Source: Candidatus Hodarchaeota archaeon (GTDB taxonomy: Archaea > Asgardarchaeota > Heimdallarchaeia > Hodarchaeales > Hodarchaeaceae). Taken from it: 6,661 bases of DNA. Below, in pieces: positions 3,024 through 6,614 of this stretch. A program made the position numbers and the translations under genes. The notes beneath the pieces are model-generated. The model was given only the letters and a program-made list of their open reading frames with translations, was not told the DNA's origin and ran no database searches. Location of the stretch: NCBI GenBank assembly GCA_016839665.1, contig JAEOTU010000020.1, positions 1 to 6,661 of the forward strand, given 5' to 3'. Position 1 is the stretch's first letter, and each line of letters starts with the position of its first letter.

Positions 3024-3887
3024 CTATAAGAAGGTTTTAACTGCTTCAGGAATCTCCCACGGTGTTTCAGTGACTTTAGCTCCGACTGCTTCTAGGGCAT
3101 CAATTTTTCCTTGCGCCGTGCCAACATTTCCAGAGATAATTGCACCAGCATGACCCATTCTTTTTCCTTCGGGTGCACTCTTTCCTGCAATATAAGCCAC
3201 TATTGGTTTGTCAACTTTTTGATCTTTAATATATTGAGCAACTTTTTCTTCATCATCACCGCCGATTTCACCAATTAATACAATTACCTTTGTTCCAAAA
3301 TCTTGTACATAATAGTCAAACGCCTCAGACAAAGTTTTTCCCCGTACTGGATCTCCACCAATTCCAATATAAGCAGAAACTCCAATCTTGGCATTTCCGA
3401 GAGCTTTCGTGATCTCATATGATAGCGTACCACTCTTTGCAATTACAGCAACATTTCCAAATTGAGCCATATCTCCAGGCATGATTCCCAACTTAATTTT
3501 GTCAGGGATTAACATTCCTGGCGTATTTGGACCTATTAGATGTAATCCTTTTTCCTTAGAAGTTTCCACAAGACGAACCATGTCAAAAACTGGCACTCCT
3601 TCTGTGATGACGCATGTCATATTGACTCCTGCATCAAAACTTTCCATAACAGCTCCGTAGGTGAACCGAGCGGGAACAAAAATAATACTTGTATCCACTT
3701 CACGCTCTTCGACAGCTTCTTGAACAGTATTGAAGACAGGCACCCCAAGAACTTCCTGGCCACCCTTTTTAGGAGTTACTCCTGCTACAACATTAGTACC
3801 GTAATCAAGCATCAACTGGGCATGAAACCTTCCTTGGTTACCAGTAATGCCTTGAACAACGACTTTTGAATCTTTACTGATGTACAT
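3024..3887 (-). CDS. sucD: Succinate-CoA ligase, alpha subunit (ADP/GDP-forming)
   Basis: The alpha subunit binds CoA and carries the phosphohistidine for succinyl-CoA + NDP + Pi = succinate + CoA + NTP. The 287 residues are full length. An N-terminal Rossmann CoA-binding domain shows GITGNQGRFH at 13-22, and GPNTPG lies at 119-124, where many homologues have GPNCPG. The second domain has AKSGTLSYE at 150-158, GEIGG at 206-210 and GKRMGHAGAI at 241-250. His246 is the expected phosphorylated histidine and has the same number as in E. coli. The ATG at 3887 has an AAGGTGG Shine-Dalgarno site (3898-3892), partly overlapping the end of sucC, whose stop is 12 bases upstream, so the two subunits are translated from one message. 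The order beta then alpha is the usual sucCD order. Every key motif is intact, so the enzyme should be active. Confidence 0.97.
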   Translation of the reverse strand: MYISKDSKVVVQGITGNQGRFHAQLMLDYGTNVVAGVTPKKGGQEVLGVPVFNTVQEAVEEREVDTSIIFVPARFTYGAVMESFDAGVNMTCVITEGVPVFDMVRLVETSKEKGLHLIGPNTPGMLIPDKIKLGIMPGDMAQFGNVAVIAKSGTLSYEITKALGNAKIGVSAYIGIGGDPVRGKTLSEAFDYYVQDFGTKVIVLIGEIGGDDEEKVAQYIKDQKVDKPIVAYIAGKSAPEGKRMGHAGAIISGNVGTAQGKIDALEAVGAKVTETPWEIPEAVKTFL

Positions 3888-3899
3888 GATACCACCTTC

Positions 3900-5021
3900 T
3901 TATGCCATTACCTCTTTAAGCTTACCAACCGCATCCATCATATCTTGGTACGCATCAACGCCAGCATCTTTGAGTATTGCTACACCCTCTGCCTCTCGTG
4001 TTCCTGTTAGTCTAATTACCATAGGGGGAGCATCTGGAAATTCCTTCATTGTCAGAAGTATGGCTTCAGCCACGACATCACACCTAGTAATGCCACCATA
4101 AATATTGATAAGGACTGCCTTTGGTTTCATTGTATATATGAGCTTAAGAGCTTCATATACACGTTCTTTACTGGCACCACCACCAACATCAAGAAAGTTC
4201 ATACCTGCTAGTCCATGTTGAGCCAGTACGTCAAGTAAAGCCATTGTTAACCCTGCTCCATTCGCTAGAATACCAATTTCACCATCGAGTTCGACAAATG
4301 AGAATCCAACTCTTTGTGCTGTCTTTTCTAGCTCAGTAAGTTTACGCTTTCGTAATTCCACAACAAGTTCTTGGCGAAAGGCAGCGTTATCATCCAAAGT
4401 CATCTTTCCATCTACAGCAACCACTCCCGAAGGAGTAAGAACCAACGGATTAATTTCAACAAGTTGTGCCTCTTTTTCAGTAGTAATACGCCATAACTTA
4501 AGGAAAAGGTCTGTAGCTGAATCTAGATCATCACCCGAAAAACCTAATCTCTCAGCAACACTCTTTGCAACAACTTCACTCAAACCTTCTGTCAGAGAAA
4601 TATTCTCTTTGACAATAGCTTCTGGACGAGTAGCAGCAACTTCCTCAATATCAATACCACCTTCTGCGCTTGCAATAAGTACAAAACGTCTCCCAGAGGA
4701 ATCTAGAGCAATAGAGCAATAATACTCATGCTTAATATCAGCCAATCCTTCTATAAGGATTGCTTCAACTCCGTATTCCCCAACTTTTCTACTAAAGAAC
4801 TCTTCACACATTGAAAGAGCTTCGTCTCTCGTTTGAGCAATTTTGATGAGACCTCGTTTTTTTCGGCTACCAACAGCTATCTGACTTTTAACTATAGCAG
4901 GAAAGCTGAATTGACCAATCTTTTCCCCGATATCTTCCCCTTTTGTGATTACAAGACGTTCAGCAAGGGGAATATCATATTCACTGAAAATTTCTTTGCT
5001 TTCATATTCGAGAAGTCGAAT
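3900..5021 (-). CDS. sucC: Succinate-CoA ligase, beta subunit, with predicted AUU start
   Basis: The beta subunit supplies the nucleotide-binding ATP-grasp domain and the succinate site of succinate-CoA ligase, partnering SucD just downstream. The frame is open back to a TAG at 5036-5034 but has no ATG, GTG, TTG or CTG before codon 71 (ATG at 4811). The skipped segment is clearly conserved SucC: RLLEYESKEIF, then PAIVKSQ. It begins with ATT at 5021 where homologues have Met, 7 bases after AGGAGGT, giving 373 residues (E. coli SucC is 388). Other motifs by this numbering are ASAEGGIDIE (117-126), EINPL (189-193, with Asn191 for Mg), DGK (Asp204), NGAGLTM (254-260), LDVGGGAS (277-284), NIYGGITRCD (306-315) and RLTGT (337-341). 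The nucleotide-binding loop reads VGSRKKRG instead of the common GGRGKAGG. Gene identity is certain; the AUU start is inferred, and the alternatives are an ACG one codon earlier or a base error. Confidence 0.93.
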   Translation of the reverse strand: MRLLEYESKEIFSEYDIPLAERLVITKGEDIGEKIGQFSFPAIVKSQIAVGSRKKRGLIKIAQTRDEALSMCEEFFSRKVGEYGVEAILIEGLADIKHEYYCSIALDSSGRRFVLIASAEGGIDIEEVAATRPEAIVKENISLTEGLSEVVAKSVAERLGFSGDDLDSATDLFLKLWRITTEKEAQLVEINPLVLTPSGVVAVDGKMTLDDNAAFRQELVVELRKRKLTELEKTAQRVGFSFVELDGEIGILANGAGLTMALLDVLAQHGLAGMNFLDVGGGASKERVYEALKLIYTMKPKAVLINIYGGITRCDVVAEAILLTMKEFPDAPPMVIRLTGTREAEGVAILKDAGVDAYQDMMDAVGKLKEVMA

Positions 5022-5028
5022 CGTTTGA

Positions 5029-5035
5029 ACCTCCT
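5029..5035 (-). promoter_or_regulatory. Strong Shine-Dalgarno site marking the ATT start of sucC
   Basis: AGGAGGT on the minus strand ends 7 bases before ATT at 5021, an optimal spacing. The site overlaps the in-frame TAG (5036-5034) that closes the frame upstream, so initiation must occur within the next few codons. No other gene start is nearby on this strand, so the site is explained only by sucC. Confidence 0.8.
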
Positions 5036-5039
5036 AAGT

Positions 5040-5047
5040 TTATATAA
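5040..5047 (-). promoter_or_regulatory. TATA-like element upstream of sucC
   Basis: TTATATAA on the minus strand, within CTTATATAAAC, lies between the hairpin/U-tract and the sucC Shine-Dalgarno site. It resembles an archaeal TATA box or a bacterial -10. However, it is only about 20 bases from the start codon, so an archaeal start site would fall near ATT and leave the Shine-Dalgarno site untranscribed. It may be only AT-rich spacer. Confidence 0.3.
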
Positions 5048-5057
5048 GATTGATAAT

Positions 5058-5111
5058 AAAAAAAATAGGATTGAAGAATGATCTTGTCAGATCTTCTGAA
5101 AAAATCCTATT
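5058..5111 (-). terminator. Hairpin and U-tract between fumarase beta and sucC
   Basis: On the minus strand AATAGGATT (5111-5103) pairs perfectly with AATCCTATT (5072-5064). An inner stem AGAA-GATC / GATC-TTCT with a 6-base loop and one bulged base sits inside it. Eight T residues (5065-5058) overlap the last stem pairs and follow it. This is a classic intrinsic-terminator layout starting at the fumarase beta stop codon. It separates fumAB from sucCD, so it would end or attenuate the fumarase transcript and leave sucCD to partial read-through or its own promoter. Confidence 0.7.
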
Positions 5112-5715
5112 AAAAGGTGATACCTAAGAATTCACCTATTTTGGGTAAATTCTTTTGTGCTTCATCTGCAACATTCTGGAACAAACTATCACCATTGGTA
5201 TCAATACCCACGATTAAAGGACCAAATTTGTCAACTTCTAACACCCATAAGCATTCTGGGGTTCCCAGGTCGAGCCAGTGAACTTCCTTGACACGCTTAA
5301 TCCCCTTTGCGGCAACAACTGCGGCTCCTCCAACGAAAGCTGTATAAATTGCTTTATATTCTTTCATTGCTTTAGCGGTTCTCTCACCCATACCACCTTT
5401 ACCGATCACTACGTTTACATTGAAGGTCTTGATAAACTCATCTTCAAATATATCCATCCTGGTTGAAGTTGTTGGGCCAGCAGCGACAATTTCCCATTGA
5501 TCTCCGACTTTTCTTACGACGGGGCCACAATGATAAACAGCAAGGCCCTCAAAATCGATAGGCATCTTCTCGCCTTTCTCAGCTAGTTCTAATGCTCGTT
5601 CGTGAGCTTCATCTCGAGCTGTGAACACAATTCCCGAGACGTAAATAACATCACCTATTTTGACTTTTTGTACATCCTCCTTTGAAATTGGAGTTGTAAA
5701 ATGATATTCAGCCAT
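5110..5715 (-). CDS. fumB: Class I fumarate hydratase, beta subunit (C-terminal domain type)
   Basis: This is the small subunit of the two-subunit, iron-sulfur fumarase that interconverts fumarate and malate; it corresponds to the C-terminal domain of single-chain class I fumarases. The 201 residues match the family. Motifs are FTARDEAHE at 31-39, YHCGP at 61-65, AAGPTTSTRMD at 78-88, GKGGMG at 105-110, and WLDLGTPE with LWVLEV at 147-161. The cluster cysteines are on the alpha subunit. The ATG at 5715 has a near-perfect TAAGGAGG site (5730-5723), placed inside the end of the alpha gene, and is only 2 bases after the alpha stop, indicating coupled translation. L-tartrate dehydratase beta (TtdB) is the main alternative; the neighbouring sucCD favours fumarase. 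Confidence 0.94.
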   Translation of the reverse strand: MAEYHFTTPISKEDVQKVKIGDVIYVSGIVFTARDEAHERALELAEKGEKMPIDFEGLAVYHCGPVVRKVGDQWEIVAAGPTTSTRMDIFEDEFIKTFNVNVVIGKGGMGERTAKAMKEYKAIYTAFVGGAAVVAAKGIKRVKEVHWLDLGTPECLWVLEVDKFGPLIVGIDTNGDSLFQNVADEAQKNLPKIGEFLGITF

Positions 5716-5717
5716 GA

Positions 5718-6614
5718 TTATGCCTCCTTATGGGTTAAGTATTCAACCCGTTTATCGGGATAGATGCGAGCTGTTGCTCTTCTCGCCGCCCAGCACTGAA
5801 TAGCTACTGCAGCAGGAAGGGATGCAGGATGTCGATGAGCATAGTCGATCTTCACATCTAGCGCGGTCGAAAAATCGCCACCTAAGCCCATAGAACCAAT
5901 ACCAGTCATGTTAATAGCTTTTAATAGATCCTCTTCAAGTTTAGCTATTTCTGGGTCGGAGTGTCTTTGGCCTAGTGGTCGCATTAGTTGTTTTTTGCCT
6001 AATTTTAAAGCAATGTCAGCTCCACCTCCAATTCCGAGACCGACGATTACTGGAGGACAAGGTTGTCCACCTGCGTTCAAAATTGTATCTATAACGAACT
6101 TCTTTATCCCTTTAATTCCCTGACCTGGCTTTAGCATTCCCAAGGCACACATGTTTTCTGATCCACCACCTTTAGGAAATACTGTTATTTCCAAGTAATC
6201 GACATCAGGAATGAAATCATAGTTAATATATGGAATATGGTTCCCTGTATTATCCCCAGAGTTTCCGCCAACAATAGGGTTGACCGCATTTGGTCTCAAA
6301 GGAACTTCCTTGGTTGCACGTACAGAAGCTTTCCTAAAGGTCTCTTCAAGCCCCGCAATTTTAGGAAAATCCTCACCAATATTGACATAGTAAATGTGAA
6401 TTCCAGTATCCTGGCACATTGGGGTAGATGTTTCATCTGCAATGGTAAAGTTATCCACAATTGTTTTTAACGCGGCTTTACTCGTTGGTTTCGTTTCCTT
6501 TTCATACATGGTCTTTAATGCTTCGGAAACGTCATTTGGTAGCTGAGTTGCAGCAAACTTGTGCAATTTTACAGCAGTATCTTCTATTATTGTGTTATCA
6601 AACGTTTCTGTCAT
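5718..6614 (-). CDS. fumA: Class I fumarate hydratase, alpha subunit (4Fe-4S)
   Basis: This large subunit carries the oxygen-sensitive 4Fe-4S cluster whose open iron acts as the Lewis acid for fumarate/malate hydration. The 298 residues are full length for the N-terminal-domain type. The three cluster cysteines are Cys67 in PMCQDTG, Cys156 in SENMCALGML and Cys186 in GGQPCPPVIVGLG. VGGNSGDNTG (115-124), KGGGSEN (148-154) and RPLGQRHSDPE (212-222) are further family motifs. The C-terminal HPASLPAAVAIQCWAARR resembles archaeal and anaerobe homologues. The ATG at 6614 is preferred to a TTG at 6632, which has no Shine-Dalgarno and adds six non-conserved residues. The ATG has only a weak GGGAT upstream but sits about 26 bases from a TATA-like box, so a leaderless message is possible. 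It is the first gene of the cluster seen here. TtdA is the alternative. Confidence 0.94.
   Translation of the reverse strand: MTETFDNTIIEDTAVKLHKFAATQLPNDVSEALKTMYEKETKPTSKAALKTIVDNFTIADETSTPMCQDTGIHIYYVNIGEDFPKIAGLEETFRKASVRATKEVPLRPNAVNPIVGGNSGDNTGNHIPYINYDFIPDVDYLEITVFPKGGGSENMCALGMLKPGQGIKGIKKFVIDTILNAGGQPCPPVIVGLGIGGGADIALKLGKKQLMRPLGQRHSDPEIAKLEEDLLKAINMTGIGSMGLGGDFSTALDVKIDYAHRHPASLPAAVAIQCWAARRATARIYPDKRVEYLTHKEA

Follow-up and report, generated by a model that had tools for sequence, protein, structure and literature searches.

Translation of sucC, the gene for the β subunit of succinate-CoA ligase, very probably starts at an AUU codon (5021-5019) in the DNA analyzed here, a stretch of 6,661 nucleotides (the window) that is a Hodarchaeales-type Asgard contig. 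Judged by its relatives, this AUU, or AUA in its place, appears to be a near-cognate start that is particular to this gene and has been retained for a long time, and it was shown to be the sole conserved start candidate, with 15 sucC loci having no canonical codon nearby. The named best database relatives are proteins of Promethearchaeota, Thorarchaeota, and Hodarchaeales MAGs, and the nearest named locus (L008), from a Hodarchaeota MAG, is 97% identical to the window. The minus strand of the window has the gene order fumA-fumB-sucC-sucD. The fumarase α subunit gene fumA (5718..6614) is taken to start with the ATG at 6614, with a TTG six codons upstream; fumB (5110..5715), recognized as the fumarase β subunit by profile match, and sucD (3024..3887), recognized as the ligase α subunit by NF004230, have ordinary ATG starts. 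sucC itself (3900..5021) encodes 373 aa when read from ATT and was identified with Pfam and phmmer. It has the ATP-grasp_2 and CoA-ligase domains over its full length (Pfam PF08442, 1.8e-49; PF00549, 1.1e-18), sucD adjoins it, and its score against NCBIfam NF001913, 368.9 bits, lies just under the cut-off of 370. A search of the window with Rfam gave no match at the gathering threshold, indicating no known leader RNA.

The putative initiation codon (ATT, 5019..5021, minus strand) is marked by the Met position of homologues, by the relatives, and by the lack of a canonical start until codon 71. An in-frame TAG (5034..5036) closes the frame five codons upstream of ATT and overlaps a Shine-Dalgarno sequence, AGGAGGT (5029..5035), from which ATT is separated by the spacer TCAAACG. 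After the TAG the frame reads GAG GTT CAA ACG ATT CGA CTT CTC, with ACG as the codon preceding ATT, and the protein continues as RLLEYESKEIF.... The initial annotation had stated that the frame opens at the TAG (5036-5034) with no ATG, GTG, TTG, or CTG before codon 71, and that ATT occupies the Met position of homologues 7 bases past AGGAGGT. Both statements are borne out by the sequence, the second also by phmmer: its alignments to the solved SucC chains 1jkj (E. coli) and 3ufx pair residue 2 of the 373-aa frame with residue 2 of each chain, which places ATT at Met. It had further predicted that gene callers would mis-start the gene at 4811 and that a plus-strand frame covering the sucC N-terminus (4833..5081) is spurious; the public call does begin at the ATG of codon 71 (4809..4811), as do those for P0046, P0048, and P0051 (303 aa), and a Pfam search with the plus-strand frame gave no match. 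A start at codon 71 would cost the protein the stretch that aligns with approximately residues 1 to 70 of E. coli SucC, and with it VKCQVHAGGRGKAGG, which belongs to the nucleotide-binding ATP-grasp half. The nearest named relative, L048 (the same locus as L008; isolate YT5_056, another MAG, 97% identical), has ATT as well, and its frame is closed by a TAA two codons before it.

Of the 47 loci obtained in a scan of contigs, 23 are Asgard, and the starts of these are ATT, ATA, one GTA, and one ATG. When 227 Asgard-phylum genomes were searched, at least 38 were found to have this sucC type (54-97% identity), together with a more distant type at ~40% identity; in 12 sampled loci of the latter (L086-L097), a canonical start stands at the aligned position in eight and one codon before it in four. 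The 41 loci compared (the window, L048-L085, and the partial loci L046 and L047) have at the Met position of sucC ATT in 18, ATA in 15, GTA in one, ATG in six, and GTG in one. The AUU start proposed in the initial annotation is thus supported and extends, as ATT or ATA in 33 of 41 loci, to a clade. An ATG at this position in related genomes had been named there as evidence against AUU; such genomes do exist as a minority, as the six ATG loci and the GTG locus attest, but the window's own group has no ATG in ten sequences. In 15 of the 41 loci there is no ATG, GTG, or TTG from the upstream in-frame stop to codon +20, and in ten of these the stop precedes the start by just one or two codons, compared with five in the window. 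A canonical codon lies nearby in the 19 other non-canonical loci. Seven of the ten loci in the window's group have a TTG or GTG 3-5 codons upstream that overlaps the Shine-Dalgarno sequence (some also have one further up), leaving only three (the window, L048, and L050) free of a nearby canonical codon. At codon 3, ten of the 41 loci (eight with ATA, two with ATT) carry a TTG that could serve as a UUG start there, although its distance from the Shine-Dalgarno sequence is six bases greater than that of AUA/AUU; single cases are a TTG at -14 in L065 and a GTG at +10 in L074. In the window's sucC, no canonical start lies near the N-terminus, and the conserved Met position, preceded by a Shine-Dalgarno sequence, is occupied by a near-cognate codon. 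Separately, L073 (= L015) has GTA at the start position, and a nearby canonical codon is absent. Among the 120 database SucC proteins listed, 53 have an extension before the Ile and many others begin at codon 3 or further in; 22 have Met at the start position, some of which may represent true ATG starts, these being protein sequences only.

The distribution of start codons was placed on a maximum-likelihood tree of 42 SucC sequences, in which some long branches, including L081, L082, and L084, are of unsure place. All ten sequences of the window's group have ATT or ATA. Of the seven ATG/GTG loci, L057 (ATG) branches apart near the base of the tree, L082-L085, like L057, lie on separate, mostly long branches, and L075 and L080 form a nested Loki pair; within the Loki-type part of the tree, L075 and L080 have ATG, and L083-L085 have ATG, ATG, and GTG, respectively. 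With the start column omitted from tree building, at least five changes between ATT and ATA are required, and four between an Ile codon and any other. None of the 31 rows that open with an Ile codon uses ATC there, yet ATC occurs in at least two rows of every one of the 13 other invariant Ile columns (77 of 396 codons in total), and every one of 42 fourfold columns has G or C somewhere (four of the 42 being without G). Since the rows share ancestry, the events behind these numbers are not independent. Because ATC is absent from the start column yet present in the other Ile columns, the start column is, by this comparison of sequences, not a free Ile codon, and it would be under a constraint beyond coding Ile. 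The best Shine-Dalgarno match is at identical spacing in 27 of the 31 Ile-start sequences, with 7-8 bases matched in 14, 6 in 5, and 4-5 in 12. The preceding codon varies (ACG, ACA, AAA, AAG, GAA, TTT, ATC, and others, with a stop in L076 and L081), and conservation climbs sharply at the ATT codon. Two other readings were considered and dropped. One assumes a longer frame in which ATT encodes an internal Ile; it conflicts with the absence of ATC and with the 15 of 41 loci where nothing upstream could act as a start. The other has an intron or editing supply an AUG, for which there was no evidence and which would have to recur in many lineages.

Neighboring genes were used to gauge how specific this start is. 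Counted over distinct genomes, the sucD genes beside these sucC genes open with ATG in 34 of 37 cases, GTG in one, and ATT in two; one of the ATT cases (L072) has an ATG two codons upstream and the other (L076) does not. In L076 (= L019), the sucD frame holds no canonical codon from the upstream stop up to the conserved N-terminal part of SucD. fumB starts with ATG in all ten distinct genomes. A wider survey paired two incomplete Hodarchaeales-type stretches, 1.2 Mb from G001 and 1.6 Mb from G002. It yielded 253 reciprocal best hits, of which 205 were used; the sucC pair is not one of the 253, having been lost to the ORF filter. Both members have a canonical start in 191 of the 205 pairs, and 14 pairs were flagged. 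Inspection of eight of the 14 revealed no shared AUU/AUA start; some are antisense-looking frames, and in others a canonical start is found further downstream. A CUG start is possible for one G002 ORF, B-1015604_1016285, which by eye resembles an HD-domain protein: its CTG follows AAGGTGATATAG and takes the place of the ATG in the G001 orthologue. An ab initio start survey of half of the G002 chromosome was set aside as too noisy; the Shine-Dalgarno sequence is not general there, and sucC was not reported. A pattern search for an initiator-like tRNA with an Ile anticodon was uninformative, giving in many genomes about as many matches as a reversed-pattern control. ARAGORN, run on parts of both genomes, made a doubtful call of tRNA-Ile(AAT) in G002 and found in G001 a tRNA-Met(CAT) that looks like an initiator, having an A1-U72 pair and an anticodon loop interrupted by an intron.

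In E. coli, AUU starts are policed by IF3, and for this reason the genes for aIF1 were examined; aIF1/SUI1, the start-codon fidelity factor of archaea, is the functional counterpart of IF3, although the two are not known to be homologous. Of the 38 genomes that have this sucC type, 32 contain PF01253 (aIF1/SUI1), and 40 aIF1 loci, chosen from the match lists, were compared. The labels Hodarchaeales-type and Loki-type come from contigs common to named records or otherwise from sequence grouping, and of the 30 Loki-type aIF1 rows only G110, G112, G144, and G145 are named Loki. A canonical start precedes the zinc knuckle in ten of the 40 loci: the six Hodarchaeales genes among them have ATG, as do G054 and G055, and second aIF1 copies in G139 and G148 have a GTG within GAGGTG, four codons before an ATT. 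In the other 30 loci, all Loki-type (L242, L246, L247, L249, L251, L253-L277), no canonical start occurs from the upstream stop to the zinc knuckle. The codon at their start position is ATT in 28, ATC in one (L251), and ATA in one, and AGGTTGTGA lies within 24 bases before it in 25 of the 30; the leader pairing is imperfect and 12 bases from the AUU. The nearest solved structure to the Loki-type product is the aIF1 chain 4mo0 (E 5e-24), and its best NCBIfam family is the stress response translation initiation inhibitor YciH. Public aIF1 entries begin MKDDDICP, or MWKKS, or past the zinc knuckle, and 49 of the 120 listed relatives fail the zinc-knuckle pattern, mostly through beginning past it. 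We interpret the MKDDDICP entries as ATT read as Met and MWKKS as TTG followed by a TGA read as Trp; judged at the protein level, some of the MKDDDICP starts seem to have been assigned silently by the NCBI pipeline, and the codon may thus already be annotated, though without remark. Loki-type aIF1 thus seems to start at AUU, and this AUU is a possible archaeal parallel to that of infC.

The mechanism that we favor, and regard as probable though well short of established, is that the AUU of sucC is a weak start kept as a throttle set by aIF1, with aIF1 and sucC together forming the counterpart of the IF3/infC circuit. AGGAGGT would position the 30S complex and the initiator tRNA (anticodon CAU) over the AUU, where Met-tRNAi(CAU) could pair at two positions, the third being a C-U mismatch (C-A for AUA). 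Initiation would thereby be with Met, and the avoidance of AUC is consistent with C-C being the worst mismatch. aIF1 destabilizes a non-AUG initiation complex, according to work cited in PMC6237735. The start-codon stringency set by aIF1 would then govern the output of SucC, selection would keep the start weak, and in Loki-type genomes aIF1 would also set its own synthesis through its AUU start. Whether the AUU/AUA start of sucC has a regulatory role at all we consider evenly balanced. Of the two roles suggested in the initial annotation, limiting β-subunit synthesis relative to α would be conjecture, and a link to translation state draws indirect support from the like start on Loki-type aIF1, although the six Hodarchaeales aIF1 genes have ATG. 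More tentative still, and somewhat doubtful at present, is a broader proposal in which a small class of Asgard AUU/AUA genes follows stringency, with Loki aIF1 autoregulating via AUU in convergence with IF3/infC and sucC as a metabolic target.

The chief alternative to a throttle accepts the AUU/AUA start but gives it no regulatory meaning: an ancient mutation would have been tolerated, with the Shine-Dalgarno sequence compensating for it. This is a serious contender, if one that we think rather less than probable. The long Shine-Dalgarno matches of 7-8 bases in 14 of 31 sequences agree with it, as does the ATG of the nested Loki pair (L075, L080), but the match is short (4-5 bases) in another 12. 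Moreover, ATG is a single mutation away, yet the near-cognate codon lasts in both branches, A and T swap repeatedly while ATC stays absent, and aIF1 offers a parallel. A different possibility, to which we give a low probability, is that these archaea are lax about start codons throughout their genes, which would make sucC unremarkable. The ATT of sucD in L076, the G002 gene with CTG against ATG in its G001 orthologue, and the aIF1 genes of Loki-type genomes could each be read in this way. However, the neighboring genes start mostly with ATG, and the orthologue survey of the two Hodarchaeales-type stretches found canonical starts in both members of most pairs, with no shared AUU/AUA start among the eight flagged pairs inspected.

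That translation begins somewhere other than the AUU is considerably less likely again. The candidates would be the ACG before ATT, a TTG or GTG overlapping the Shine-Dalgarno sequence, the codon-3 TTG, or the ATG at codon 71; public calls do use such starts, the upstream extensions of 53 of the 120 database proteins included, and the codon-3 TTG in ten loci and the upstream TTG/GTG in seven provide the means. Against them, codon -1 is unconserved and is a stop in L076 and L081, a codon-71 start costs the N-terminal fifth of SucC, 15 of the 41 loci have no canonical codon upstream or at codon 3, and conservation rises at the ATT codon itself. Least likely by far, to the point of being negligible, is that ATT is a sequencing or assembly error for ATG. 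The data do come from MAGs, but ATT or ATA recurs in many separately named MAGs, and the error reading is refuted by these relatives.

The E. coli infC gene, which encodes IF3, is the closest known system: its expression is reportedly limited by AUU, and mutation of AUU to AUG is said to abolish autocontrol. The likeness would be an AUU start on an initiation fidelity factor, here the aIF1 of Loki-type genomes; the difference is that sucC is a metabolic gene rather than a translation factor, and the window's own group, Hodarchaeales, departs from the infC pattern in having ATG on aIF1 in six of six genes. In eukaryotes' eIF1, autoregulation works through poor start context. For E. coli recJ, a GUA initiation codon mutation is said to be suppressed through IF3; it resembles sucC as a non-canonical start on a non-translation gene (the sucC relative L073 has GTA), but the recJ GUA is a mutation whereas the AUU/AUA of sucC is natural and conserved. 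In chloroplasts, evolutionarily kept non-AUG starts have been proposed as a layer of translational control (PMC9845219), a case similar in its retention and different in its plastid genes and machinery. Passages of a review of archaeal initiation (PMC7531240) name AUG, GUG, and UUG as starts and describe Shine-Dalgarno-led initiation with aIF1, aIF1A, and aIF2; AUU does not occur in that text. Initiation at sucC would likewise be Shine-Dalgarno-led, but at an AUU/AUA codon instead of AUG, GUG, or UUG. Within the open-licence part of PubMed Central, no title or abstract opening listed by the searches dealt with AUU/AUA starts of Asgard sucC or aIF1.

If the proposal is true, the archaeal lineage closest to eukaryotes uses start-codon stringency to control genes, which bears on how fidelity factors come to regulate their own production. 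Public protein sets would also contain truncated or falsely extended SucC and aIF1, apparently because gene callers disallow AUU/AUA. Elsewhere in the window, the plus strand at 1919-2428 encodes a 169-aa protein with two CPxC-type pairs and without a Pfam or NCBIfam match. In the window's SucC, codons 50-58 read VGSRKKRGL where E. coli SucC has AGGRGKAGG, a replacement with a possible effect on nucleotide binding.
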